Shown here one piece after another: positions 4,600-35,520 of a stretch of DNA of 64,000 nt. Every line of letters starts with the position of its first letter. The stretch's first letter is position 1. The position numbers and the translations under genes were made by a program. Source of the stretch: Ureibacillus sp. FSL W7-1570 (GTDB lineage: Bacteria; Bacillota; Bacilli; Bacillales_A; Planococcaceae); assembly GCF_038593265.1 (NCBI RefSeq), contig NZ_CP151979.1:992001-1056000 (forward strand). Reading direction: 5' to 3'. The notes under the pieces were generated by a model. The model worked only from the letters and a program-made list of their open reading frames with translations. It had not been told where the DNA came from and ran no database searches.

Positions 4600-4691
4600 C
4601 CTCTGGCAGATTGGAAGATCCGCCAGGCCCTGATGGTTTTTCCTCTCTTCCCCGAAAATTTCCGCCAATCAAGGACAACCGTACAGTCAAT

Positions 4692-22278: not shown

Positions 22279-22671
22279 TCCCTATTCCCAGCTGCAGTTA
22301 CGAAAAGGTAGCATTTCTAAAGTGTTGAGTGGAAAGGATCATCTCTTCCTTTTATTATAGCTTACCATTTAATTGACAAAGAGGATGTATTCATTTTGGA
22401 ATATTTCTTACGAATCGGCAAATTTTAATAGGATTGTCAAAAAGTTTCTTCATTGCCATGGGATTTGGGTTATAGGAGTTTTGGCTGTCCAATTGAAGTC
22501 GAAACAATCATTGGGCATAATCCTTTTTTTCTGTTCACTTGGGCTAAAATTCTGAAACATTTCCTTTTTATATTTCGTATAATAATTGCAAATTCTTATT
22601 TTATAACAAAGTTGGGAAATTTTTATAGTTTACATCATTTTTTAAAGACTGGTGGAAAAGGAAGTGGTCTG
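22279..22671. other. Intergenic region between divergent ATPase and DUF2500 genes
   Basis: This 393-bp AT-rich stretch must hold both promoters. A TATAAT on the minus strand at 22354-22359 is a plausible -10 for the ATPase gene, without a good -35. Short ORFs here lack ribosome binding sites and I do not regard them as genes. I see no repeat or RNA structure. Confidence 0.5.
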
Positions 22672-23034
22672 ATGTTTTTTGATTCGGTGCAATTTGATTC
22701 GATGTTTTATAATTTGATGTTTTCCCTTTTTCCTTTCATCTTTTTAGTTGTTTTTGCCATTATCATTTTCAGCATATTCTCAAATATTAAACAGGGCATA
22801 AAAAATAATCAATCTCCCCTGTTGACTGTCCCGGCAAAAGTGATTACAAAAAGAATCCAGGTACGGGGTGACCATTCCCATACCACCTATTACGTCACCT
22901 TCGAAGTGCAAAGCGGAGACCGGATGGAATTAAAAGTGAATGGCCAAGAGTATGGAATGCTGGTGGAAAATGATGTGGGGTTACTATCATTTCAAGGAAC
23001 GCGATATGTTTCTTTCGAACGGCAAAAATCATAA
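22672..23034 (+). CDS. DUF2500 family membrane-anchored protein
   Basis: 120-residue protein. One N-terminal transmembrane helix (MFSLFPFIFLVVFAIIIFSIFS) is followed by a soluble beta-rich domain with TVPAKVITKR, TYYVTFEVQSGDRMELKVNGQEYG and GTRYVSFERQ, which is the DUF2500 signature. Function is unknown in the family. The ATG at 22672 has GGAAG about 8 nt upstream and gives a protein starting just before the helix; a longer frame from 22453 lacks support. A terminator follows at 23054-23089. Confidence 0.85.
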   Translation: MFFDSVQFDSMFYNLMFSLFPFIFLVVFAIIIFSIFSNIKQGIKNNQSPLLTVPAKVITKRIQVRGDHSHTTYYVTFEVQSGDRMELKVNGQEYGMLVENDVGLLSFQGTRYVSFERQKS

Positions 23035-23089: not shown

Positions 23090-23090
23090 A

Positions 23091-23236
23091 ATGGCGAACA
23101 GGGAATGGAAAAATATAAGCGGCAACTATGGCGGAAAACGAGAGGGCAGAAAAAATGGCCAAGGGAGTTTGACCAAGGTCTGGCAAACGAACCTTTGACG
23201 CCGGAAGAAAAATATAATAATGAAAGGTGGCAGTGG
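23091..23236 (+). pseudogene. Frameshifted sspO-like spore protein remnant
   Basis: Read from the ATG at 23091 the sequence gives MANREWKNISGNYGG and stops after 35 codons. In the next frame it continues as REFDQGLANEPLTPEEKYNN. Aligned to the intact gene at 34896-35051 (MSNREKKNLSGN ... EFDHELANEPLTPEERYNN), a single missing base near 23160 explains the break. The intact gene's TGA is TGG here, so the natural stop is also lost. The copy follows directly on the DUF2500 terminator and has no sigma-G-like promoter. It overlaps no coding need of the convergent lyase gene, which ends at 23255. Confidence 0.7.
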
Positions 23237-23254: not shown

Positions 23255-24775
23255 TTAACTTTCAATCGCTTTTTGAATATGTTTAAGCAGTCTTTTTGAC
23301 TTTACTAATTGGTAAGCCCACTCTATATCTATGGATAAGTTTCGGTCTTTGTCCAAAAATGGAATTTGCTCACGAATCATTTCATATACCGCACCCGTTC
23401 CGACACCCAATTTTGCACCTTTCCTTAAATCAACGGCTTGAGCAGCATGAATCGCCTCAATCCCAACGATGTAATAAAGGTTGTCGAGCATTTTTCTTAA
23501 CTTTTGAATGACTAAAGCCGAATTTGTGGCGTGATCTTCAATGTCGCCTGCCAATGGGAAATAATCCGAAACAACCGGATTTGATAAATGCCGGATTTCC
23601 GCATCCAACGCTGAAAAGGTTTTCTGAATCGTACTGAAAGCAATCACCTGCTCTTCATCTGGTGATAAAAATCTTGTTAAATTTGTAAACGCAGGGTTTG
23701 CCAACTTAATGGTTCTAAAACAGCTGTTTCTTGATACATGGGTTAATGCGAGTCCAACCATTTCCAAAGCGAATACAAGTGTGATGACCTCAAAATTTGC
23801 AGTATGTACAATACGTTCTTCTTCCACTATTAAACAAGGATTATCATCCGATGAATTTAACTGAATGGTCAATAATCCTTTCACATATTCCAAACTGTCC
23901 AATGCAGCACCATGCACGGTAAATCCGCCACGAAAACTGAGTGGATCTTGAATGGAAGTTTTTTCTTTCCGATTCCATAAATAACTGTTCCGCAAAAACT
24001 TTCGGACCCGATCGGCACTTTTCATTTGACCATTAAAAGGACGGAATTTTAATACGGATTCATCAAGGGGATCCAAATTTCCATCTAATCCTTCCAACGA
24101 TAAACTATAAATGGCGTCTGCCATTTCAATGAAATCATCTAAATCTTGCAAAAGAATCGCTGCCATCCCGGCCGAATATGCATTGGAGCTGACAATGGCC
24201 AAGCCATCTTTGGGTCCGAGAATCATTGGAGACAGTTTCTCTTCCTTAAACGCCTCCATCACAGGGACCCGATTCCCTTTATAATATACTTCACCTTCCC
24301 CAATCATTGCCAAGCCGATATGGGATAGGATTCCGATATCCGCTAACCCAACGGTTCCACGGCTGGGAATGACCGGGGTGATTCCGCAATTCAGAAAGGT
24401 TTCATACATTTGCGCTATTTCCGGCTGTATGCCCGTACAGCCAACAAGTAATGTATTTAATCGGGCAAGCATGGCTGCCCGTACATCTTCAATGGTTGTT
24501 TCCGGTCCAACTCCGATCGAATGGGACAACAATAAATTCCGGTTATATTGGGAAAATCTTTCTTTTTCCACCAATCGGTCTTTATTCAAACCGACCCCAC
24601 GGTTCAATCCATAAACCGGCGCATCATTATCGATCCATTGTTGAACCATTTTCCTGCCCTTTTTTAATTTTTCCAACGCTTCATCGCTGATGGCCACTTT
24701 CCTTTCATTCCGGGCAACTTGGACAATCTCTTCAATTGTCAATGATTTTCCATCCAGCACTAATGTTTTGTACAT
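23255..24775 (-). CDS. HAL/PAL-family lyase lacking the MIO motif; candidate ergothionase
   Basis: 506-residue member of the histidine/phenylalanine ammonia-lyase fold. Retained: the catalytic Tyr loop PVYGLNRGVG (Tyr55), YNRNLLLSHSIGVG (77-90) and the C-terminal IEDHATN segment equivalent to the family's QEDH. Missing: the Ala-Ser-Gly that cyclises to the MIO electrophile. Where HutH has GSVGASGDLAPLAH, this protein has GTVGLADIGILSH (140-152), one residue shorter. Ergothionase (ergothioneine to thiourocanate + trimethylamine) is a known MIO-less member, because the leaving amine is already quaternary. The upstream betaine-type transporter and the urocanase-like and hydantoin genes support that role. 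Other quaternary histidine betaines remain possible. Confidence 0.78.
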   Translation of the reverse strand: MYKTLVLDGKSLTIEEIVQVARNERKVAISDEALEKLKKGRKMVQQWIDNDAPVYGLNRGVGLNKDRLVEKERFSQYNRNLLLSHSIGVGPETTIEDVRAAMLARLNTLLVGCTGIQPEIAQMYETFLNCGITPVIPSRGTVGLADIGILSHIGLAMIGEGEVYYKGNRVPVMEAFKEEKLSPMILGPKDGLAIVSSNAYSAGMAAILLQDLDDFIEMADAIYSLSLEGLDGNLDPLDESVLKFRPFNGQMKSADRVRKFLRNSYLWNRKEKTSIQDPLSFRGGFTVHGAALDSLEYVKGLLTIQLNSSDDNPCLIVEEERIVHTANFEVITLVFALEMVGLALTHVSRNSCFRTIKLANPAFTNLTRFLSPDEEQVIAFSTIQKTFSALDAEIRHLSNPVVSDYFPLAGDIEDHATNSALVIQKLRKMLDNLYYIVGIEAIHAAQAVDLRKGAKLGVGTGAVYEMIREQIPFLDKDRNLSIDIEWAYQLVKSKRLLKHIQKAIES

Positions 24776-24802
24776 CTTGTCAATCTCCTATCAATGCCAA
24801 GG

Positions 24803-25438
24803 TTATGATTCCCCACGCGCTTTTAAAGCCGCTTTATTTTCAATTTTCAATAACAAATAGTTCATTGCTAATGCAAGTGCAGCCACTAAGACGGTCCCTA
24901 TAATAATTTTATGTGATGCATTTTGGTAAAGCCCTTCAAACAACAGTACACCTAAACCGCCAGCATTGATCCAGGCAGCGATTGTCGCAATCGCAATAGT
25001 GGAAATTGTGGCAATTCGGATTCCAGCGATAATCACCGGGAGGGCTAACGGAAGCTGGATTTTCCAAAAAAGTTGCATCGAATTAAGCCCCATTCCTTTA
25101 CCTGCTTCAACAATCGATGGATTGATGGACTGAAACCCGACCATCACATTTCGTACCAAAATGATTTGGTTATATGCGACCAAGGCGATGATGGCCGGCT
25201 TCATTCCAAGCCCTGCAATTGGAATTAACAAGGCAAACAGTGCCATGCTCGGTATTGCATAAATTATTCCTAAAACAGATAAAATCGGTACGGATAGCCA
25301 TTTGAATTTTGTTAGAAAAAATCCGACCGGCAAAGCGATGGCTAAAGCGATGCCTAACGAAATGACCATGATTGTGAAATGATCTAAAAATAGTGAAAAA
25401 ATATGATCGTAATATTTAGTAATATACTCTATTATCAT
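24803..25438 (-). CDS. OpuC-type ABC transporter permease, second subunit
   Basis: 211-residue inner membrane subunit with about five or six helices. It has the binding-protein-dependent transport motif near GKGMGLNSMQLFWKIQLPLALPVIIAGIR. It resembles OpuCD/OpuBD of glycine betaine/carnitine/choline importers. Its start overlaps the ATPase gene stop by 4 nt, indicating coupling, and it is followed by the lyase gene 27 nt downstream. It would pair with the permease at 27512-28156 to form the channel. Confidence 0.88.
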   Translation of the reverse strand: MIIEYITKYYDHIFSLFLDHFTIMVISLGIALAIALPVGFFLTKFKWLSVPILSVLGIIYAIPSMALFALLIPIAGLGMKPAIIALVAYNQIILVRNVMVGFQSINPSIVEAGKGMGLNSMQLFWKIQLPLALPVIIAGIRIATISTIAIATIAAWINAGGLGVLLFEGLYQNASHKIIIGTVLVAALALAMNYLLLKIENKAALKARGES

Positions 25439-26415
25439 GACGGAACCACCACTTGCTTTATAGATTTATTTAACTTTAATTGTTCAAAAGTAATCGCACC
25501 AACCGGCTGATGATTTTCATTCTCCACAATGATACCGTCAATATCGGAATTTAAAAATAACGTCAAGATTCCCTTCAAATCATCATGGCGCTTAACAACT
25601 TTGGGATTATTTAATTTCACTTTGTCCAGTGGAACCATGACATTTTCCGCTTGAAGCATGCTGAATAATTGAATAATATCTTCCGACTGAACCAAACGGC
25701 TGACAAATTCATTTGCAGGATTCAATAAAATATTTAAAGGTGTATCATACTGTTGAACACGCCCTTGATCCATTACAATGATTTTATCTCCAAGCTTTAA
25801 GGCTTCATTAATATCATGGGTAACGAAAAGAACGGTTTTCTTTAATTTTTTTTGGATTGAAATTAATTCATCTTGAAGCTTTGAACGAGTAATGGCATCA
25901 ATGGCGCCGAACGGTTCATCCATTAATAAGATTTCCGGGTCACTAGCCATTGCCCGTGCGATTCCCACCCGTTGTTGCTGGCCACCTGATAATTGCCGGG
26001 GATATCTTTTTCGGTACTCATTTGGCGGCAAGTGAACCAGTTCAAGAAGAAAATCAATCCGCTCACTGATTTTCTTAGGATCCCATTTTAAAATTTTTGG
26101 TACCGTCGCAATATTTTCTTCAATGGTCATATGCGGAAACAATCCGATCTGTTGAATGACATAACCGATTTTTCTTCTTAATTCTGTAACTGACACTTTT
26201 GATGTGTTTTCGCCTTGCACAAAAATATTCCCCGTTGAAGGTTCATGAATTCGATTTACCATTTTCAAAAGTGTTGTTTTCCCGGATCCGGAAGTTCCTA
26301 AAATCGTTACAAAAGTTCCTTCTTCTATCTTTAGATCTGTTTCATAAACAGCAGGTCTTTTTGCATTTGGAAAGGTTTTGCTGACTTGTTGAAATTCGAT
26401 AATTGAACCAGACAT
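25435..26415 (-). CDS. OpuC-type ABC transporter ATP-binding protein
   Basis: 326-residue ATPase. Walker A is GTSGSGKTTLLK, the signature is QLSGGQQQRVGIARA, and Walker B is ILLMDEPFGAIDA. A C-terminal extension of about 90 residues (DDLKGILTLFLNSDIDGIIV) looks like a single CBS-type module; OpuCA proteins usually carry two. The ATG at 26415 (MSGSIIEFQQ) has an AAAGGAG upstream. A longer frame from 26511 would run through the intergenic hairpin and is rejected. It would energise import of a quaternary ammonium compound. Confidence 0.9.
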   Translation of the reverse strand: MSGSIIEFQQVSKTFPNAKRPAVYETDLKIEEGTFVTILGTSGSGKTTLLKMVNRIHEPSTGNIFVQGENTSKVSVTELRRKIGYVIQQIGLFPHMTIEENIATVPKILKWDPKKISERIDFLLELVHLPPNEYRKRYPRQLSGGQQQRVGIARAMASDPEILLMDEPFGAIDAITRSKLQDELISIQKKLKKTVLFVTHDINEALKLGDKIIVMDQGRVQQYDTPLNILLNPANEFVSRLVQSEDIIQLFSMLQAENVMVPLDKVKLNNPKVVKRHDDLKGILTLFLNSDIDGIIVENENHQPVGAITFEQLKLNKSIKQVVVPS

Positions 26416-26444
26416 ATACGGAACAACTCCTTTAATAAAAAATA

Positions 26445-26528
26445 GGCTGTGTTTATCAAATAGCTGTCGGTGTATATTCACTCTATGTATTTTCCTGCTA
26501 GGACCAGACACTATGTATGAACACAGCC
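26445..26528 (-). promoter_or_regulatory. Long-loop hairpin with U-tract between binding-protein and ATPase genes
   Basis: On the minus strand GGCTGTGTT and AACACAGCC form a perfect 9-bp stem around a 66-nt loop, followed by TATTTTTTATT, just ahead of the ATPase Shine-Dalgarno. It could be a leaky terminator that keeps the binding protein in excess over the ATPase. It could also be a small inserted element, since its ends are inverted repeats. Confidence 0.5.
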
Positions 26529-26566
26529 CAAATGATATTTTTTGAGGGGCGATTTACGATATTTCC

Positions 26567-27493
26567 TTACTTTTTAATGATTCCTTGTTCAACCAGAAAA
26601 TCTTTGGCCACTTCAGCGTATTCCCGTTTGTCGATATCAACCTCTGCATTTAATTTTTGAACAACTTCATCATTTAAAAGTTTGGATACTTCATTTAATA
26701 CATCAGCAACTTTCGAATCTTTTTCCAAGATTTCATTGCGAATGACTGGTGCAACATAATATGGAGGCCAGAAGCTTTTGTCATCTTCGAGCAGAACCAA
26801 ATCCGGATTCGTTAAATCTCCATCTGTTGTGAAACCAACTGTTACATCCGCTTCATCATTCAAAATCACACGATATTTAATACCGTAATCATATAGTTCA
26901 AGGGATTTAAATTCCATGCCGCCATAATGTTTCTGTAAACCGATGAGCCCGTCTTCCCTTTCAGTAAACTCCGGAACAGCCGCCATTCTTAATTTAGGTG
27001 CCAATTCCGCAAGTTTGGAGATTGTATAAAGATCATATTTTTCTGCAACTTTCTTTGTTGTCACTAATCCTTGGGAGTCATTTGCATCTGTTGGTTCAAG
27101 CCATACCAAATTAAATTTATCTTTATATTCTTTGGAAACAATATCATATACTTCCTGCGGGTCTGATTTTGGTTCCTGTTCCAAAATGTTGATTAAACCC
27201 GTTCCTGTGTACTCAGGATACATATCGATATCTCCGTTTTTTAAACTTTCGTGGGCAACCATTGTTCCGCCGAGATTTAATTTTCTTTCCACTTTATATC
27301 CGGCATTTTCCAGAGCAAGTGAGTACATTTCACCTAAAATCAGCGATTCCGTAAAGTTTTTCGAGCCGACTTTGATCAAAGGTTTTTCCTCATCTGTCGA
27401 AGCATTTGAACCATCTGAAGATTCATCACCGCAAGCTGCCAACATCGCTATTACCAACACTAATAAGCCCAATAATTTTAAATATTTTTTCAT
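26567..27493 (-). CDS. OpuC-type quaternary amine-binding lipoprotein
   Basis: 308-residue substrate-binding protein. It has a lipoprotein signal peptide (basic start, hydrophobic LLGLLVLVIAML, lipobox LAAC with Cys about residue 21). The mature domain is OpuAC/ProX-like (KVGSKNFTESLILGEMYSLALENAG ... LGGTMVAHESLKNGDIDMYPEYTGTGL, quoted in parts). This family binds glycine betaine, carnitine, choline and, in EgtU-type proteins, ergothioneine. It lies between permease and ATPase genes in the same operon. The ligand cannot be proven from sequence; the neighbouring catabolic genes point to a histidine-derived betaine. Confidence 0.88.
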   Translation of the reverse strand: MKKYLKLLGLLVLVIAMLAACGDESSDGSNASTDEEKPLIKVGSKNFTESLILGEMYSLALENAGYKVERKLNLGGTMVAHESLKNGDIDMYPEYTGTGLINILEQEPKSDPQEVYDIVSKEYKDKFNLVWLEPTDANDSQGLVTTKKVAEKYDLYTISKLAELAPKLRMAAVPEFTEREDGLIGLQKHYGGMEFKSLELYDYGIKYRVILNDEADVTVGFTTDGDLTNPDLVLLEDDKSFWPPYYVAPVIRNEILEKDSKVADVLNEVSKLLNDEVVQKLNAEVDIDKREYAEVAKDFLVEQGIIKK

Positions 27494-27511
27494 TTTTTAA
27501 CATCCCTTCAT

Positions 27512-28156
27512 TTAATCTCTTAAATAACGTGTAAAGAATTTTTCTGTGGTTGCAAAGGATACTTCGGAAAGAATCGCCAATAATGCAACCGGAATAGCAC
27601 CTACTAACAGTAATGGGATATTATACATTCCAAGTCCATTGATGATAAATGTACCTAAACCACCTCCTCCAATAAAGGCTGCAAGGGTTGCACTTGCTAC
27701 TACTTCGACAGCGGCTGTTCTGCAACCGGCTATGATGATCGGCAATGCCAAAGGAAATTCAATTTTCCTTAAAATTTGCTTTTCATTCATCCCCATTCCA
27801 GATGCCGCTTCAATAACCGAACGATCAATCTCCCGAAATCCGGTAAAAGTATTGATGATGATCGGTGGACAAGCCAAAACGGTTAAAGCTACCAGCGCCG
27901 GATAAAAACCGGTTCCCATGATCGGTAATACAATAATTAAGATGGCCAGACTTGGAATCACCCGCAATGAGTTAAAAATCCCCATGATGATACTTGAGAT
28001 TTTTTCATTTTTTGCACAGATGATGCCGATTGTAATACCGATAATCATGGCAATCAACAATGCAATGATGCTTAAAATTAAATGCTCTTGAAAAGCTTCC
28101 ATAAATTTTTCCGGATTTTGTTGAATGTAGTTCCATGCTTTTTGGACTGTTTCCAT
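27512..28156 (-). CDS. OpuC-type ABC transporter permease, first subunit
   Basis: 214-residue membrane protein with about five or six helices. The transport signature is EAASGMGMNEKQILRKIEFPLALPIIIAGCR. It is paralogous to the permease at 24803-25438; together they resemble the OpuCB/OpuCD pair. It starts the transporter block of the operon, 170 nt after the amidohydrolase stop, the widest gap in the cluster. An internal promoter there is possible but I see no convincing one. Confidence 0.88.
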   Translation of the reverse strand: METVQKAWNYIQQNPEKFMEAFQEHLILSIIALLIAMIIGITIGIICAKNEKISSIIMGIFNSLRVIPSLAILIIVLPIMGTGFYPALVALTVLACPPIIINTFTGFREIDRSVIEAASGMGMNEKQILRKIEFPLALPIIIAGCRTAAVEVVASATLAAFIGGGGLGTFIINGLGMYNIPLLLVGAIPVALLAILSEVSFATTEKFFTRYLRD

Positions 28157-28326
28157 AAACTGTCACTCATTTCTTAAACTCAAATTAATTAATTTTTCTA
28201 ATTGGATTACTTATATTTAACATTAAAAAACATTCGCCATGACAAACCCATTATTCCTTTAGATACTCGTCCGTATGGTTCCAGAGAATCACGATAATTC
28301 CAAATCAAGAAGCATTTCAATCGTGG

Positions 28327-29577
28327 TTATAGCGATAAATCGAACTCAATCACTGATCGCAACAGCGCTTGTACGCCTAAAGCGATATCCTGAAAATCGG
28401 TCCATTCCTCCGGACAATGGCTTCTGCCATCACGGCTCGGAACAAAAATCATTCCAATGGGCGCAATTGTCGCCAACTGATTAGCATCATGTCCTGCACC
28501 ACTCGGCAATTTTATTGATGGACCCACCTCTTGGCACGACTCTTCAATGACTTTTTGGATAAAAGGTTCCACTCTTATCGGTTCTGATTTCGATAAACAA
28601 TCAAATGCAATGTTTACATTTCTTTCATTGGAAACAATATTGGAAAAACTAATTAATTCTGAGATTATTTGTTCTATTAATAGGGTTTCAATGGACCTTA
28701 CTTCGAATTCAAAAATCACTTTTCCAGGAATCACGTTTGCCGCATTAGGTAGAACGAATAACTTCCCAACTGTGCCTACTACCGCTTCATCGTATGGTTT
28801 CTTGCAAAGCTCTTCCAATTTCAATATCAATTCGGAAGAACTTGTGAGAGCATCTTGCCGCATATTCATAGGGGTAGTCCCCGCGTGATTCGGTTTTCCC
28901 TCCACCGTTATCCGATAACGATGAATGCCCACAATTCCTGTGACAATCCCGAGCTTATGATCCGTTTCTTCGAGAACGGGTCCCTGTTCAATATGCATTT
29001 CCAAATACAGGGCGACCTCACCCTTTTTTCTTGCTTTTTTATCGATTTCTTCTGGATTTCCACCCGCTTTTTCGATGGCTTCCGCTAAAGTACATCCATT
29101 TGGATCACGTCTTGCCAGCATTTCCTTTGTGAGATTGCCAACCATTCCCCGGCTTCCGATTGTTGAAATTCCAAATTCACTAGGTTCTTCCGCTGTAAAA
29201 TCAACAATCTCCAAAGTATGTTGGAGTTCTATCCCCTGTTCTTTCAACAGGCGAACAACTTCCAATCCTCCCAAGACGCCAATGATTCCATCAAATCGTC
29301 CGCCTCCAGATACAGTATCCAAATGGGATCCGATCATAATGGGTGGCAAGGATGGATTTTTTCCCTTTAACACTCCAATGACATTGGAAGCTGAGTCAAT
29401 GGAAACTTCCATGTTTAAGGAACGCATTTGTTCCATCAGCCATTCTCTTGCCTCAAAATACCAAGTCGTGAAAGGTCTTCTTGTCCAACCTGGTTGGGTT
29501 TTATCCACAAAAGTAGCGACTGTCAGAATGTCTTGTTCAATTCTTTGTATGCTTTGTTGCAAATCTGAATCTATCAA
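28327..29577 (-). CDS. N-carbamoyl-L-amino acid amidohydrolase (M20, hydantoinase/carbamoylase family)
   Basis: 416-residue metal-dependent amidase of the allantoate amidohydrolase/beta-ureidopropionase/L-carbamoylase family. Metal and substrate motifs in order: IGSHLDTVSGGGRFDG, TAEEPSEFG, LEMHIEQGPVLEE, KPNHAGTTPMNMR, LPSGAGHDAN and MIFVPSRDGRSHCPEE. In this cluster the predicted reaction is N-carbamoyl-L-glutamate to L-glutamate + CO2 + NH3. The start is TTG at 29577 with AGGGGTG upstream. It lies 30 nt after the hydantoinase-type gene. Allantoate would be the main alternative substrate. Confidence 0.87.
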   Translation of the reverse strand: MIDSDLQQSIQRIEQDILTVATFVDKTQPGWTRRPFTTWYFEAREWLMEQMRSLNMEVSIDSASNVIGVLKGKNPSLPPIMIGSHLDTVSGGGRFDGIIGVLGGLEVVRLLKEQGIELQHTLEIVDFTAEEPSEFGISTIGSRGMVGNLTKEMLARRDPNGCTLAEAIEKAGGNPEEIDKKARKKGEVALYLEMHIEQGPVLEETDHKLGIVTGIVGIHRYRITVEGKPNHAGTTPMNMRQDALTSSSELILKLEELCKKPYDEAVVGTVGKLFVLPNAANVIPGKVIFEFEVRSIETLLIEQIISELISFSNIVSNERNVNIAFDCLSKSEPIRVEPFIQKVIEESCQEVGPSIKLPSGAGHDANQLATIAPIGMIFVPSRDGRSHCPEEWTDFQDIALGVQALLRSVIEFDLSL

Positions 29578-29608
29578 ATTCTCACCCCTTCAGTTCAACA
29601 AAAATAGA

Positions 29609-30967
29609 TTAATGTTTTGCAAATATAAATTGCCCATCACCAGGTTTTCCAACTACATCCTCACCGTCATAGACCAAGTTTCCTCTGACAAACGTATGGG
29701 TAATTTTTCCTTGCATCCGTTTATGATGATATGGGCTCCATCCTGCACTTGAATGCTGTTTTGTCTCATCCAATATCCAAGATTGATTCGGGTCAAGAAC
29801 GACAATATCTGCATCCATTCCTTTTTCAAGTTTGCCTTTTTGTGAAGATAAACCAAAAATCTCGGCAGGTTTTTTGCTTAATAGATTCACCAAATCGATG
29901 ATTGAAATTTTGCCTTTGGCTACCCCTTCTCCATATAAAATGGGCAATAACACTTCCACTCCTGGAGCACCTGATGCATTTTCAAAAATATTCGAACGAT
30001 TCTTTTTATCAATTGTCCATGGAGCATGATCGGACGTGACAATGTCAATCATTCCGTTTTTAAGTTGCTTCCAGAGACCGTCTGCATCCTCTTTTGAACG
30101 GAGGGGCGGATTGATTTTCGCTTTTGCCTTTAAAGTAAGCATATCCTCTTCCGTTAAAGTCAAATAATGGGTGCAAGTTTCCGCCGTTATATTCGTTCCC
30201 ATACCCTTGAAGTATTCAACCAGTTCAAAAATGCGAGGAAATGTGCAGTGATAAATGTGCAAATGAACACCTGTCCAATACGCCAGTTCCATCGCTGTCA
30301 GTACGGCAATCGATTCCGCAAATTTTGGACGGCTCCAAGCATGGGATCGCGGATCTTTCTCTCCCAAAATTTCATATTTTTTTATAAAACCGCGAACAAT
30401 TTCATCATTTTCCGCATGGACCCCCACCGGTAATCCGGTTTTCGCAACTTCCGAAAATACATCATATAACAATGCATCATTGATTCTTGGAAATCTATTG
30501 GGGTCGGTATTGAACATAGACAATTTAAACCCGCAAGCGCCTTGTTTTGCCAAAAGCGGTATTTGATCCAACCCATTTTCCGGTTTTATGGTAGCCAAAA
30601 GTGCCATGTCCACAATGGATTGGGATTCGAGTTGTTCCTTTTTCTTTACGAAAAGTTCTTCTGTCCCAATTAAACCCGGTGCATCATAGGGCATTTCAAT
30701 GATGGTTGTAACCCCTCCTGCCGCCGCAGACTCACTCGCCGTCGTAAAACCTTCGTCAACTGAACTATAACAATGGACATGGGCATCTATTGCACCAGGT
30801 AAAACATAACAGTCATTTGCTTGAATCACTTCTTTTGCATTTAAATTCCCGATGCGGTCAAATATATCCACAATTTTTCCATCCCGGATTGCTACAACAC
30901 CGTTATGGACAACCGTGTCATCCTGAACGATATTCCCTTGTATAATAAGATCAAAATATTCACTCAT
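29609..30967 (-). CDS. Cyclic amidohydrolase (hydantoinase/allantoinase type)
   Basis: 452-residue binuclear metal amidohydrolase. Ligands visible: HxH in GAIDAHVHCYS, the carboxylated lysine in ACGFKLSMF, His in GVHAEND and HIYHCT, and Asp in VTSDHAPW. The C-terminal HHKRMQGKITHTFVRGNLVYD resembles allantoinases more than classical dihydropyrimidinases. In this setting the predicted step is ring opening of hydantoin-5-propionate to N-carbamoyl-L-glutamate. The ATG at 30967 (MSEYFDLIIQG) follows TAGGTTGATAAAT. Allantoin is an alternative substrate, but no other purine genes are present. Confidence 0.87.
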   Translation of the reverse strand: MSEYFDLIIQGNIVQDDTVVHNGVVAIRDGKIVDIFDRIGNLNAKEVIQANDCYVLPGAIDAHVHCYSSVDEGFTTASESAAAGGVTTIIEMPYDAPGLIGTEELFVKKKEQLESQSIVDMALLATIKPENGLDQIPLLAKQGACGFKLSMFNTDPNRFPRINDALLYDVFSEVAKTGLPVGVHAENDEIVRGFIKKYEILGEKDPRSHAWSRPKFAESIAVLTAMELAYWTGVHLHIYHCTFPRIFELVEYFKGMGTNITAETCTHYLTLTEEDMLTLKAKAKINPPLRSKEDADGLWKQLKNGMIDIVTSDHAPWTIDKKNRSNIFENASGAPGVEVLLPILYGEGVAKGKISIIDLVNLLSKKPAEIFGLSSQKGKLEKGMDADIVVLDPNQSWILDETKQHSSAGWSPYHHKRMQGKITHTFVRGNLVYDGEDVVGKPGDGQFIFAKH

Positions 30968-30996
30968 ATTTATCAACCTACTGACTTTATTAATTT

Positions 30997-31740
30997 TTAA
31001 ATCAAATCGATTAACAACTTTGTAATTTCATCTGCACTGTCTACAACCGCTTTAATCACACCGGTCTTTGAATGTTCTTCCCAACGGTCGATCGGTCCGG
31101 CAACGGTTAAACTGGCAATCACTTTTCCATTGTTATCGAAGATTGGTGCCCCAACGCCGAATATATCTTTATCTACCTCACTAAAAGTTGTACAATATCC
31201 ATCCATTCGGATCTTATTTAATTCCTCAAGCAGCGTTTTCCTATGATTTTCATCTTCTATGTTCTTCATGACTTCATTTATAATTTGTTCGCTTTCAAAA
31301 GCGAGGATGGCTTTGCCTGAGGCTCCTTGGTGGAGTGGCAATAATTTGCCATTCTCCACTACAAAACGAATCAACCGGGTACTTGAGCAACTCTCTATGC
31401 ATATCACTTCGAATCCGGAACGAATCGTTAATACCGTTGTTTCATTTGTCTCTTCCGTCAATTTTTTCATAATCGGTTTAGCGATTTCGTTTAAACGAAG
31501 ATCAATTTGCTTCGCTAAACTATTCGCCAAGTAAAGGATTTTCATTCCCAAACCGATCCGTCCTTTTTCTCTTCTTTCAACAACCCCAAGTTTTTCCAAT
31601 GTTTGTAATAGCCGATATGCTGTACTTTCCGGAATGTTCACTTTTTCAGCAATTTCACTAACAGATAATGTTGTCCCCGCCTCTGCGAGTACAAATAAAA
31701 TATCTAGTCCGCGTTTTAATGTTTGTGTACTATTACTCAT
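30997..31740 (-). CDS. IclR family transcriptional regulator
   Basis: 247-residue regulator. The N-terminal winged helix-turn-helix (TLKRGLDILFVLAEAGTTLSVSEIAEKVNIPESTAYRLLQTLE, quoted across its parts) is followed by an effector domain with VLTIRSGFEVICIE, LPLHQGASGKAILAFE and FGVGAPIFDNNGKVIASLTVAGP. It is encoded inside the operon, 22 nt after the DUF917 gene, so it probably controls the cluster including itself. I chose the ATG at 31740 because AGGGG is 6 nt upstream; the frame extends to 31785. A large palindrome ahead of the first gene (34549-34580) is a candidate operator. Confidence 0.9.
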   Translation of the reverse strand: MSNSTQTLKRGLDILFVLAEAGTTLSVSEIAEKVNIPESTAYRLLQTLEKLGVVERREKGRIGLGMKILYLANSLAKQIDLRLNEIAKPIMKKLTEETNETTVLTIRSGFEVICIESCSSTRLIRFVVENGKLLPLHQGASGKAILAFESEQIINEVMKNIEDENHRKTLLEELNKIRMDGYCTTFSEVDKDIFGVGAPIFDNNGKVIASLTVAGPIDRWEEHSKTGVIKAVVDSADEITKLLIDLI

Positions 31741-31762
31741 TTTCATCCCCTGTTGCCCATTT

Positions 31763-32863
31763 TTATTTGACTTTATCAAAAACATAATCTACTAAATTAA
31801 TTCCCAGCGCCTCTTCAACTTCAGGATATACGGTCGGATCTTTCACACTTGCACTTAGCGGGATAAATTGTTTATTGATGCTGAATACAGCTATTTCCAT
31901 TCCTTCGACTACATTTCCTACACTGATAGGCGCGCCGGTTTCTACAGATAAAGTGGTAATTACATCCGGGAATGTCGCTAAACGTTGACCTGATTTTGTA
32001 TCCACAGCCATATACTCATTCATTACATGAAGAATCAGTTCCCCATGTTCCTCGGATTCAACGGTGATTGTCCCTATATCAAATGCTCCCGAATATTGAA
32101 CCGTCTTCTTCAATACTTTTCCACTTCCTAAAATTGTGCCATTTGTTTTATTGCAAATCGCTTCAATGACCGCACCAGCGCCATTTGGTTCGGCTTCCAT
32201 TATTGCATAGCCCAATTCCAACGCTTTGCTGATACCGCCAATTGCTGCATTCTCCTTAATATACTTGGCTGGTAATGGATGTCTTGCAGCCGCAATAAAT
32301 CCTCCCGACATATCTGAAGCAGTTCTCAATATTTTGGAAGTCTTTGCAGGAGTGCCTTTCACAACGAGCTCAATATATGAACCAGTTTCCGCTTTGCCTC
32401 CAACCACCACTTGAATCGTTTCATAATCTGTTGAATTTCCCAATCCTAATGATCCCATTTTCCCTGTTGGATGTGCACGAATATCGCCCGTTGCATCCAC
32501 CACCACCATGTCTAATGCAGCAGCAGGCAGCCAACCATTGATGCTGCTTGACATCCCGTTTTGCGGTGTCATTAATCCATAGATTTTTTTCCCGAGTGTT
32601 TCTTGAAGAAGTTGGACAGCTTTAATGTAATCTTTTCCAAGCATTTGCCAATCCGTCGTCCCTGCCGGAGCGCCAATTGCTGTCGCCGTAACAATGATTG
32701 CGTCATCGGGAATTTCATCTACAGAGACTAATTTCGGTTTTCCAATGGTGATTGCAGCCCTTCCGATTTCTAATCCATGGTCCACCCAGCCCCCACCGCC
32801 GGAAGCATAGACCGAACCTCCTTTTACCGCTGCGATTACATCATCATAAGTTAATTCTCTCAC
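31763..32863 (-). CDS. DUF917 family protein; candidate thiohydantoin-propionate desulfhydrase
   Basis: 366-residue protein of the DUF917 family, often found beside hydantoinase-type genes. The N-terminus has the family glycine cluster SVYASGGGGWVDHG; later come VVDATGDIRAHPTGKMGSLGL and SGGFIAAARHPLP. No function can be read directly. Known ergothioneine degradation needs a desulfhydrase for 3-(5-oxo-2-thioxoimidazolidin-4-yl)propionate, and this is the only cluster enzyme left for that step, so I propose it by elimination. Start: GTG at 32863 with AAAGGAA 9-10 nt upstream; a GTG at 32872 is too close. It follows the hydratase gene by about 14 nt. Confidence 0.75.
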   Translation of the reverse strand: MRELTYDDVIAAVKGGSVYASGGGGWVDHGLEIGRAAITIGKPKLVSVDEIPDDAIIVTATAIGAPAGTTDWQMLGKDYIKAVQLLQETLGKKIYGLMTPQNGMSSSINGWLPAAALDMVVVDATGDIRAHPTGKMGSLGLGNSTDYETIQVVVGGKAETGSYIELVVKGTPAKTSKILRTASDMSGGFIAAARHPLPAKYIKENAAIGGISKALELGYAIMEAEPNGAGAVIEAICNKTNGTILGSGKVLKKTVQYSGAFDIGTITVESEEHGELILHVMNEYMAVDTKSGQRLATFPDVITTLSVETGAPISVGNVVEGMEIAVFSINKQFIPLSASVKDPTVYPEVEEALGINLVDYVFDKVK

Positions 32864-32877
32864 AGTATCCACTTCCT

Positions 32878-34530
32878 TTATTTTTTGTAATGTTCCAGAT
32901 TAATTCTTCTAATATTCTTTTTCTCCACTTCTTCCAACGCTTCCTCATAACCTGCATCCGCGTAGCGAAGCACTCCCAATCCTGTATCGTTATCCAATGT
33001 ATATTTCAATCTCATATCCGCCGCTTCCGTTCCATCGGCAACCAGTGTCACTCCGGCACTTGTCATATAGCCGGCATACCCTCCACCGCCGGAATGAATA
33101 ACGACTAAATCCGCCATAGATGAACAATTCAGCATTGCATTGATTAGGGGCCAATCTGAAATTGCGTCACTGCCGTCTTTCATCCGTTCCGTCATAATGT
33201 TCGGATGGGCCATTGCACCTGCATCCAGATGGTCTCTTGAAAATGCGATCGGTCCAGATAGTTTTCCTTCTCTCACCATCTTATTTACTGCCAATGCAAG
33301 TTCTGTGCGTTCACCATGGCCAAACCAACCGATTCTGGCGGGGAGCCCTTCAAATGGAACATATTGATTGGCAAGTTTAATCCAGTTTGAAGCGATCTGA
33401 TTATCTGCAAAATTCTCCAATATGTATTGATCGATTGTTCGAATATCTTCCGGATTTCCCGATAATGCAATCCAACGGAAAGGACCGATGGCTTTCGCGA
33501 ATAATGGCCGCAAAAACGCTTCTGTGAAAATATCAATCTCAAATGCTTCCTCCACTCCCGCTTTAAAAGCTTGTGAGCGAATGTTATTCCCATTATCAAA
33601 TACAATAGAACCGCGGTTTTTGAATTCCAGCATCGCGCGAACTTCCGTTGCAATGGATGCCAACGAATCTTCCGCCAATTGTTCAGGATTTGTTTTTCTT
33701 AACTGTTTAACTTCTTCAACTGTATATCCTTGTGGAATATATCCATAGACGAGGTCATGGGCGGCTGTTTGATCTGAAACAATATCCGGTACAATGCCAC
33801 GGCTCAAAATTTCAGGATAAATATCCGCTGCATTTCCAAGCAATCCCACGGATATGCTTTCTCCTGATGATTTCGCTTCGTCAATCCACTGTAATGCTTG
33901 ATCCAAATTATCCGTTTTCTTTTGAAGGTATCCGTGTTCGATTCGTTTATTGATCCGTTCTTCATCCACTTCGACAACTAATATCGCCGCATCAGCCATT
34001 ACTCCCGCCAGAGGTTGGGCACCTCCCATTCCCCCCAGACCGGCTGTTAAGATGAAACGGCCTTTCAAACTGCCATCAAAGTGTTTTCTGGCAATGGTTT
34101 GGAATATTTCGTATGTACCTTGAATCACACCCTGGGAACCGATATATTGCCAAGCCCCTGCCGTTAAACCTCCCCAGCAGATTAACCCTTTGTCTTGCAA
34201 ATCATAAAAATTCTCACTCGTTGCCCATTTGCCGACTATGTTGCAGTTGGCCATCACAACAATCGGGGCGTATGGATGAGTTTTAAATACACCAATCGGT
34301 TTACCGGATTGGATGACTAATGTCTCATCTTCCTCAAGATTTTGTAAGGTATCCACAATGGCATGATAAGATGGCCAATTTCTTGCTGCTTTTCCCAATG
34401 AAGCATATACGATCAATTCGTCTTGATTTTCACCATTTTCTAGAACATTTTCCAATAACCGCAGCAGAGCTTCCTGTCTCCAACTTTTACAGCGCAGCTC
34501 ACTGCCCCGTTTTGCAACTATTTTCCCCAA
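32878..34530 (-). CDS. Urocanase-like hydratase; candidate thiourocanate hydratase
   Basis: About 550 residues, the usual urocanase (HutU) length, with the NAD+-binding GLGGMGGAQP segment (about residue 170) and LTAGAWQYIGSQG. Two active-site stretches differ from the HutU motifs I remember: RDHLDCGSVASP is RDHLDAGAMAHP here (near residue 435), with Ala in the Cys position, and HHGGGVGMGYS is HSGGGGYAGYM. This fits a changed substrate such as thiourocanate. Canonical hutI and hutG are absent nearby. A TTG at 34530 has GGAGGTG well placed upstream; the ATG at 34545 would overlap that site. First gene of the ten-gene cluster. Confidence 0.85.
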   Translation of the reverse strand: MGKIVAKRGSELRCKSWRQEALLRLLENVLENGENQDELIVYASLGKAARNWPSYHAIVDTLQNLEEDETLVIQSGKPIGVFKTHPYAPIVVMANCNIVGKWATSENFYDLQDKGLICWGGLTAGAWQYIGSQGVIQGTYEIFQTIARKHFDGSLKGRFILTAGLGGMGGAQPLAGVMADAAILVVEVDEERINKRIEHGYLQKKTDNLDQALQWIDEAKSSGESISVGLLGNAADIYPEILSRGIVPDIVSDQTAAHDLVYGYIPQGYTVEEVKQLRKTNPEQLAEDSLASIATEVRAMLEFKNRGSIVFDNGNNIRSQAFKAGVEEAFEIDIFTEAFLRPLFAKAIGPFRWIALSGNPEDIRTIDQYILENFADNQIASNWIKLANQYVPFEGLPARIGWFGHGERTELALAVNKMVREGKLSGPIAFSRDHLDAGAMAHPNIMTERMKDGSDAISDWPLINAMLNCSSMADLVVIHSGGGGYAGYMTSAGVTLVADGTEAADMRLKYTLDNDTGLGVLRYADAGYEEALEEVEKKNIRRINLEHYKK

Positions 34531-34548
34531 TACATACACCTCCATTTA

Positions 34549-34580
34549 TCAAATAATGATAATAAATTATCACTATTTGA
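34549..34580 (-). promoter_or_regulatory. Large palindrome in the leader of the catabolic cluster (candidate IclR operator)
   Basis: TCAAATAATGATAA-TAAA-TTATCACTATTTGA has 14-bp arms matching at 13 of 14 positions. It lies immediately upstream of the first gene's Shine-Dalgarno and downstream of a TTGACA -35 (34617-34622, minus strand) with a GATAAT -10-like hexamer 15 nt away. It could be an operator that blocks elongation or initiation, or an mRNA hairpin that limits translation. Confidence 0.6.
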
Positions 34581-34895: not shown

Positions 34896-35051
34896 ATGAG
34901 CAACAGGGAAAAGAAAAATTTAAGCGGAAACTTTAGCGACGAACAAGCGGTAAGAAAAAATTTATCAAGGGAATTTGATCATGAATTGGCCAATGAACCT
35001 TTGACGCCGGAAGAAAGATATAACAATAAGAAAACGAAGAAGCGTCAGTGA
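34896..35051 (+). CDS. sspO: Small acid-soluble spore protein O-like
   Basis: 51-residue basic, polar protein, too short for many gene callers. Its C-terminus (ELANEPLTPEERYNNKKTKKRQ, in parts) closely resembles the tail of SspO from Bacillus as I remember it ([21 protein letters not shown], in parts). The N-terminus MSNREKKNLSGN is less typical. SspO-type minor SASPs are made in the forespore. A strong GGAGGTG lies 6 nt ahead of the ATG, with a sigma-G-like promoter upstream. A broken paralogue lies at 23091-23236. Confidence 0.68.
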   Translation: MSNREKKNLSGNFSDEQAVRKNLSREFDHELANEPLTPEERYNNKKTKKRQ

Positions 35052-35139
35052 GCCATAGACTATTGACATGATCCATAACTGAAATGAGCAGATAGGATTA
35101 TTTTCAATATTCTGCATGAATGACTTTCCCTAAATCAAA

Positions 35140-35446
35140 GAGGCTGGGACATAACTAATAAAATGAACGAGCTGCAAAAAGGTTTTTTTGTAAAAAATCG
35201 ATATCACAGAAAATTGATTGAAGTGACGGGGCGAGTTTCTGTCGCGCACGCTTAGTCGCAAAGCAAAAGCTTTCCTGCGACGAGCCCTCTCGAGACCCCG
35301 CAGGAGCGAAGGATTGAGCTCCGAGGAGGCTCGAGCCGGGCCCGCGGAAAGCGTCCCCGGAACGGAAATCAATTTTCTTCAATTATTAAAAAAACACCAT
35401 TTTCTCACGGGAGAAAATGGTGTTTTTTATCTTTTGTCCCAGCCTC
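35140..35446 (-). repeat. Intergenic repeat, copy 2 (inverted relative to copy 1)
   Basis: A 307-bp element with the same TGTCCCAGCCTC/GAGGCTGGGACA ends, hairpin and GC-rich core as the copy at 4692-4983, but in the opposite orientation. Here the terminal inverted repeat extends to 19 bp with AATCAAA/TTTGATT (35133-35453). The core is nearly identical to copy 1. The section around the GACGGGGCGAGT region and the A/T-rich end have diverged by small insertions. It lies between sspO and the ABC exporter gene and could also act as a terminator. Confidence 0.85.
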
Positions 35447-35520
35447 TTTGATTGCTATAACAATTTGGTTTTACTTCATTTTTTTCAGCCAAGTTCATTA
35501 AAATGGCTTGCGATTACAAA

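Follow-up and report, generated by a model that had tools for sequence, protein, structure and literature searches.

The question raised by a block of ten genes in Ureibacillus sp. FSL W7-1570 is whether it encodes a complete route for the breakdown of the antioxidant ergothioneine, from import to glutamate, and which of its parts depart from the pathway that is already known. The block lies in a stretch of 64,000 nucleotides (contig NZ_CP151979.1, positions 992,001 to 1,056,000; hereafter the window), in a genome made up of one contig of 3,280,775 bases. The ten genes very probably constitute an ergothioneine utilisation (ert) operon that runs from import to glutamate. Bacteria that destroy ergothioneine help set the amounts that reach soil, plants and diets, and the operon offers a complete transporter-to-glutamate example with a testable likely control site.

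Gene content and the predicted route to glutamate

The ten genes lie in one direction on the minus strand at 23255-34545 in the open reading frame (ORF) list of the window and form an operon (Table 1). They are transcribed in the order hydratase, desulfurase (DUF917), IclR, amidohydrolase, carbamoylase, permease, binding protein, ATPase, permease and lyase. The junctions mostly overlap or are short, but 170 bp separate the carbamoylase gene from that of permease 1. All ten genes claimed in the initial annotation are present, and Pfam and NCBIfam matches agree with the families it named; its coordinates deviate by no more than 15 bases, the hydratase ORF starting at 34545 and not at 34530. The importer ATPase, as judged by eye, likely starts downstream of the listed GTG.

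In the proposed route, the binding-protein-dependent ATP-binding cassette (ABC) importer would take up ergothioneine. A lyase of the histidine ammonia-lyase superfamily that lacks the triad forming the 4-methylideneimidazole-5-one (MIO) cofactor would then convert ergothioneine to thiourocanate and trimethylamine, and a urocanase-like hydratase would convert thiourocanate to a thiohydantoin. The DUF917-type desulfurase would remove the sulfur to give hydantoin-5-propionate, the ring of which would be opened by the cyclic amidohydrolase to give N-carbamoyl-glutamate. The carbamoylase would release L-glutamate.

NCBIfam carries curated models with cut-offs for enzymes of the ergothioneine pathway, and three of the window proteins pass them. 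The hydratase scores 1038 bits on the thiourocanate hydratase model NF058530 (cut-off 930). Its best PDB match is 7ned (952 bits over residues 8-548; next match 630), which is titled urocanate hydratase and which we take to be the thiourocanate hydratase of Paenibacillus; ordinary sequence divergence is the sole difference between the two. The desulfurase passes the thiohydantoin desulfurase model NF058529 (630 bits, cut-off 440), which bears out the sulfur-removing step proposed for the DUF917 protein. The carbamoylase passes the ErtE model NF058540 (562.6 bits, cut-off 520). The lyase matches PF00221 (470 bits), and its best PDB match is 6s7j, named ergothionase, at 509 bits, with the next chain at 248. 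By sequence the lyase thus has the marks of an ergothionase, namely membership of the family, a missing MIO triad and an ergothionase as its nearest solved structure. The ergothioneine-to-glutamate function put forward initially therefore holds, given the curated models for three steps, the ergothionase-like MIO-less lyase and its place in a tree (below), and the failure to find other histidine utilisation (hut) genes in the genome.

One scan with the hydratase found 184 relatives; the top 80 loci were retained, 25 of them from Bacillota, to judge by their titles, and 55 others, mainly Rhizobiales. Among the Bacillota loci the desulfurase is present in 25/25, the lyase in 24/25, all five enzymes in 16/25 and an IclR gene in 20/25; among the others, 47/55 have all five enzymes and none of the 55 has an IclR match. 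The identical ten genes occur in identical order in Calidifontibacillus erzurumensis (L003; 70-90% protein identity) and Aeribacillus composti (L007; 57-80%), so the set is not a product of chance. These gene matches and the enzyme counts across the loci mark the operon as one of a widespread, known kind.

Beliaeva et al. reportedly reconstituted a five-step ergothioneine pathway in vitro in 2021. By family, the window holds the same five kinds of enzyme; it differs in that its amidohydrolase lies below the ErtD cut-offs and that an ABC importer and an IclR gene stand in the operon. Five-step ergothioneine catabolism is cited in PMC9732360 (Beliaeva, Leisinger and Seebeck 2021, doi 10.1021/acschembio.0c00968). 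The gut bacterial pathway of Feng et al. (2025), as reported in PMC13405746, also removes sulfur downstream of ergothionase, through a thiourocanate desulfhydrase that acts on thiourocanate itself, whereas the window encodes a hydratase and a thiohydantoin desulfurase instead. The idea that an operon of this kind was undescribed in Bacillales has to be given up, since the pathway is already published, NCBIfam models exist and 25 of the 80 loci are Bacillota loci with hydratase and desulfurase. The pathway is known; the importer, the amidohydrolase, the likely control site and the mode of arrival look new. Among the papers that it listed, the literature search found none on the layout or regulation of the operon, and it did not bring up the 2021 pathway paper either.

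Several observations weigh against the reading of the block as an ergothioneine operon. The binding protein lacks pocket residues of EgtU, through which Streptococcus pneumoniae and other Firmicutes import ergothioneine (PMC9732360). Its best five PDB matches are engineered acetylcholine or nicotine sensors (212-222 bits), ahead of EgtUC at 163.5 bits or less, and three importer types occur among the ert loci examined, so that the operon alone does not fix importer specificity. Among the NCBIfam matches of the lyase none is to a model named ergothionase; they are to ammonia-lyase (histidine, tyrosine and phenylalanine) and aminomutase models, and no score reaches its cut-off. The amidohydrolase misses both ErtD cut-offs, with 536 bits on NF058539 (cut-off 650) and 488.5 on NF058538 (cut-off 600). 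ErtD and ErtE were not seen in 9 of the 25 Bacillota loci within the stretch examined, and the sample, the best 80 of 184 matching stretches, was found by the hydratase alone.

Table 1. Features of the operon and its surroundings, in window coordinates
Feature	Coordinates	Strand	Evidence
Thiourocanate hydratase, first operon gene	32878..34545	-	NF058530, PDB 7ned
Thiohydantoin desulfurase (DUF917 / S-Me-THD Pfam domains)	31763..32872	-	NF058529, PF06032, PF20906
IclR-family regulator, 262 aa as listed	30997..31785	-	PF01614, PF09339
ErtD-like cyclic amidohydrolase, presumed hydantoin-5-propionate step	29609..30976	-	NF058539, NF058538, both below cut-off
N-carbamoyl-L-glutamate amidohydrolase ErtE	28327..29577	-	NF058540
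OpuC-type importer, permease 1	27512..28156	-	PF00528
OpuC-type importer, substrate-binding lipoprotein, pocket not EgtU-like	26567..27493	-	PF04069
OpuC-type importer, ATPase	25435..26511	-	PF00005, TIGR01186 proV
OpuC-type importer, permease 2	24803..25438	-	PF00528
Putative MIO-less ergothionase (trimethylamine lyase), last operon gene	23255..24775	-	PF00221, PDB 6s7j
Predicted operator TGATAATNNATTATCA	34557..34572		Conservation in relatives; 11 bases upstream of hydratase start
Small ORF flanking operon, 51 aa by hand count	34896..35051	+	blastn to L173, L174; match in G020, G019
Second, diverged copy of small ORF, other operon end	23090..23221	+	Direct repeats D1, D2

The importer and its likely ligand

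The importer belongs to the OpuC type, as initially annotated; the binding protein matches PF04069 (211 bits) and the ATPase scores 322.6 bits on TIGR01186 proV, slightly below the cut-off of 326.6. Its ligand, in contrast to its family, is predicted from the operon. The pocket residues of EgtU were taken from PMC9732360, with two fused EgtU-like proteins (L205 and L197) as stand-ins for the published numbering; these match published EgtU at 12 positions out of 14, the exceptions being I243 and T275. Like EgtU, the window binding protein is a member of the OpuAC superfamily, and it keeps K242, T274, T296, E375, R379 and Y443. It differs in having phenylalanine at G244, tyrosine at F293, alanine at Y337, aspartate at N339, glutamine at Y341 and phenylalanine at Y419. 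It also has asparagine at I243 and methionine at T275, where the stand-ins themselves deviate from published EgtU. In EgtU the permease is fused to the binding domain, whereas the window has separate genes for the two. The separate genes and the differing pocket at G244, F293, N339, Y341 and Y419 rule out that the importer is EgtU.

The enzymes could degrade ergothioneine while the importer serves the uptake of an osmoprotectant or another betaine and is merely co-transcribed. The OpuAC domain and the ProV-like ATPase agree with this, as do the missing EgtU-specific residues, the acetylcholine and nicotine sensors among the best PDB matches and the different importer types in other ert operons. 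This explanation is nevertheless judged unlikely. Of the 24 Bacillota loci with a binding protein, 16 share the glutamine at the EgtU Y341 position, where the remaining 8 carry tyrosine, and another strong OpuAC-domain protein in the genome (L153, 248 bits) could serve osmoprotection. The position is occupied by tryptophan in 10 Devosia loci. The pocket residues, the variation at the Y341 position and the PDB scores together argue for an importer that is not EgtU and for the recruitment of more than one importer type. A dedicated ergothioneine importer of this kind may represent a second way of binding ergothioneine.

All eight Bacillota ert loci with tyrosine at the Y341 position (L008, L009, L011, L012, L021, L024, L025 and L061) have a gene for an NtaA/DmoA-type flavin mononucleotide (FMN) monooxygenase adjoining the importer, and six of the eight are without ErtD and ErtE in the stretch examined. 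The monooxygenase was assigned from TIGR03860 in L011 (555 bits) and L009 (546 bits) and from tblastn identity of at least 69% in the other six. A related gene stands elsewhere in the stretch in L007 and L036. These loci possibly encode a variant route. Two ert loci that lack ErtD and ErtE matches have a ribonucleoside-hydrolase-like gene close to the importer (9051-10010 in L005; 18817-19761 in L018). The two genes score 267 and 259 bits against RihC, below the cut-off of 382, and the substrate at these loci is perhaps a conjugated ergothioneine.

Alternative substrates and the ancestry of the lyase

Degradation of S-methyl-ergothioneine via S-methyl-thiourocanate is very improbable. The models for both S-methyl variants are matched strongly, NF058531 by the hydratase at 800 bits and NF058532 by the desulfurase at 305, but both scores are below the cut-offs (880 and 450, respectively), and the non-methylated models pass.

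The cyclic amidohydrolase step proposed in the initial annotation remains plausible from the operon, with the substrate assigned from context and not from a curated family; since neither ErtD cut-off is reached, the protein is classed as ErtD-like only. Seven of ten relatives (L003, L004, L007, L010, L014, L017 and L020) likewise fail the ErtD models, with 490-534 bits on NF058539, and the other three pass (L008 with 738 bits on NF058539, L030 and L042 with 777 and 785 on NF058538). The window amidohydrolase is 58-78% identical to those of 14 Bacillota loci and 44-48% identical to those of L008 and L021. It thus looks like a member of a separate and new ErtD-like lineage below both curated cut-offs.

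On the two histidine ammonia-lyase models the lyase falls short of the cut-offs (387 of 524 and 375 of 539 bits). Both MIO and the tyrosine in QDxY have functional roles in HutH. In agreement with the early description of the lyase as MIO-less, Ala-Ser-Gly is missing at the aligned MIO position. The HutH rows are MIO-bearing and stem from relatives or from the same genomes; where they have GASGDL and QDxY, the window lyase has GLADI and QDPL. The 80 operon loci yielded 74 lyases, and in every one the triad is missing from the aligned position; the sole ASGD string among them, in L025, lies away from it. With the triad missing and both scores below cut-off, the lyase does not qualify as HutH. 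In the genome as a whole, the families of HutH and HutU have one match each (PF00221 and PF01175), both within the operon, and TIGR01224, the HutI model, has none over cut-off genome-wide, with six weak matches of which the best reaches 28 bits. The initial remark that canonical hutI is absent nearby thus extends to the whole genome, and canonical histidine degradation looks missing, HutG not having been searched genome-wide.

To our knowledge, the desulfurase and carbamoylase play no part in the hut route. That the block is a hut operon whose HutH and HutU have diverged is the least probable reading, and it is rejected. Lyase and hydratase do lie within the HutH and HutU superfamilies, and on the hutU model TIGR01228 the hydratase reaches 736 bits, above the cut-off of 375, but it reaches 1038 on the thiourocanate model. 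The lyase scores and motifs, the two enzymes without a hut role, the sole PF00221 and PF01175 matches in the operon and the lack of HutI over cut-off all argue against a hut operon.

Presumably, 6s7j and 6s7q are structures of Treponema denticola ergothionase, an enzyme said to have been described by Maurer et al. in 2019. They share with the window lyase the missing MIO triad and the motif QDPLSFR, and 6s7j is its best solved match. Ergothioneine breakdown in T. denticola is not known to go beyond thiourocanate, whereas the window lyase is encoded together with a route that runs all the way to glutamate.

A tree of 56 rows includes 29 of the 74 operon lyases, the window lyase and 10 of the 30 loci L093-L122; L126 and L127, whose longest open frame encodes something other than the lyase, were left out beforehand, as were 12 duplicates. 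The window lyase pairs with that of L003 (support 100/99) and falls within a clade of 16 rows, all of them operon lyases (97/87), that is separate from HutH. Grouping with HutH, which would have spoken against the proposed function, was thus looked at and not found. The operon lyases split into three separate lineages. A single clade of all operon lyases is rejected by the approximately unbiased (AU) test (p-AU 0.002; 29 against 24 rows), which used a quick tree, a group named after the tree had been seen, and a data set from which the long-branched L037, L143 and L014 had been dropped.

The lyase of the Brevibacillus/Lederbergia type groups with L130, which is MIO-bearing and itself long-branched (100/99); in the PDB its representative L010 matches histidine ammonia-lyase (299 bits) ahead of ergothionase (186 bits). 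The Rhizobiales-type lyase (L042) has ergothionase as its best PDB match, weakly, at 161 versus 142.5 bits. Three lineages of MIO-less lyase in otherwise equivalent operons suggest that the MIO triad was lost more than once, again for a group named after inspection of the tree, and that the cofactor-free trimethylamine lyase may have evolved repeatedly. Equivalent ert operons with another MIO-less lyase, 28-30% identical to that of the window, are found in L004, L006, L010, L013, L015, L016 and L019. Extra lyases in L138, L139, L141, L142 and L145 lack the triad in a different manner (GSVAY, GSVGY or GSAGY, gapped at the triad).

Probable control site, arrival and flanking DNA

The IclR regulator of the initial annotation is supported by matches to PF01614 and PF09339. 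Eight relatives are 244-251 aa long, shorter than the 262 aa listed in the window, so that translation probably starts at an internal ATG. Upstream of the hydratase lies the palindrome TGATAATNNATTATCA, which at one mismatch or fewer has this single site in the genome. A control pattern of reversed letters has 3 genome matches versus 1, and at up to two mismatches the window holds 2 matches versus 0.75 expected, a count reached by 16 of 100 shuffles. Since the genome count shows no enrichment, the case for an operator is one of position and conservation. An equally good match arose in 0 of 300 shuffles of the 150 bases upstream. Of 26 Bacillota rows (including the window), 11 have the palindrome with at most one mismatch in the 150 bases before the hydratase and 14 have it with at most two; the best match in the upstream stretches from outside Bacillota (53 of 55 readable) has five mismatches.

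In the 12 Bacillota rows without the site, the hydratase stands behind the importer or other genes; the exception is L017, where it leads the operon and no site is found. Matches with up to two mismatches that do not stand shortly upstream of an ert gene occur in L008, L009, L016, L021, L022, L025, L026 and L061. Paired palindromes exactly 21 bases apart are found in L003, L010, L013, L015 and L019, and before the permease in L023; L010, L013, L015 and L019 look like close relatives, to judge by their titles and scores. In L020, L022 and L023 the sites are present and an IclR match is missing in the stretch examined. The IclR protein probably controls the operon at the palindrome upstream of the hydratase, the binding site and any ligand being putative. 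The promoter and terminator scan did no better than shuffles (30 matches versus a mean of 36.4, and 8 versus 11.5), and therefore neither is claimed. Rfam gave no match at gathering scores in 19000-42000.

A broader proposal is a distinct Bacillota ert regulon in which IclR would act on TGATAATNNATTATCA sites, often arranged in tandem at a spacing of 21 bp. To this would belong an importer dedicated to ergothioneine, with a non-EgtU pocket, and a separate hydantoin-5-propionate amidohydrolase lineage, and ergothionase would have arisen repeatedly from MIO-bearing histidine ammonia-lyases. The proposal is put forward tentatively, as somewhat doubtful in its entirety, because the palindrome is not enriched over its genome control (3 versus 1) and several claims are joined in it.

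The thiourocanate hydratase cut-off is passed in only 1 of 25 genomes of the genus, that of the window; 12 others have matches below it (best of each 708-723 bits). The desulfurase cut-off is likewise passed only by this genome among 150 in a sample of the order, 34 others having weaker matches of at most 293 bits. In the close relative G020 the flanking genes (DUF2500, the small ORF and an ABC exporter) adjoin each other, which makes this an empty site. Two further close relatives differ: in G019 the small ORF is separated from the exporter by roughly 4.8 kb of other DNA, and G021 matches on the exporter side only. The operon was not found in the site stretches of these three genomes, where only ATPase-domain matches of about 30% were seen, inside the exporter gene. 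The two copies of the small ORF that bound the operon are 79% identical over 126 columns with a one-base gap, and the fetched stretches of G020 and G019 have a single copy. Similarity to L003 at the DNA level is confined to 23265-34494, L003 covering only about 450 bases beyond its lyase. The operon was probably gained by lateral transfer into the lineage, the simplest reading, with repeated loss as the less simple alternative, and the transfer was not recent since the DNA identity to L003 is 74-76%.

The DUF2500 protein beside the 3' end of the operon (22453-23034; PF10694, 109 bits) adjoins the ABC exporter in G020. Between the small ORF and the exporter gene, an element of about 320 bp (35133-35453) has 31-nt inverted ends (84% complementary) around GAGGCTGGGACA. 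It looks like a miniature inverted-repeat transposable element (MITE), and its end sequence recurs once more at 4689 with a single mismatch.

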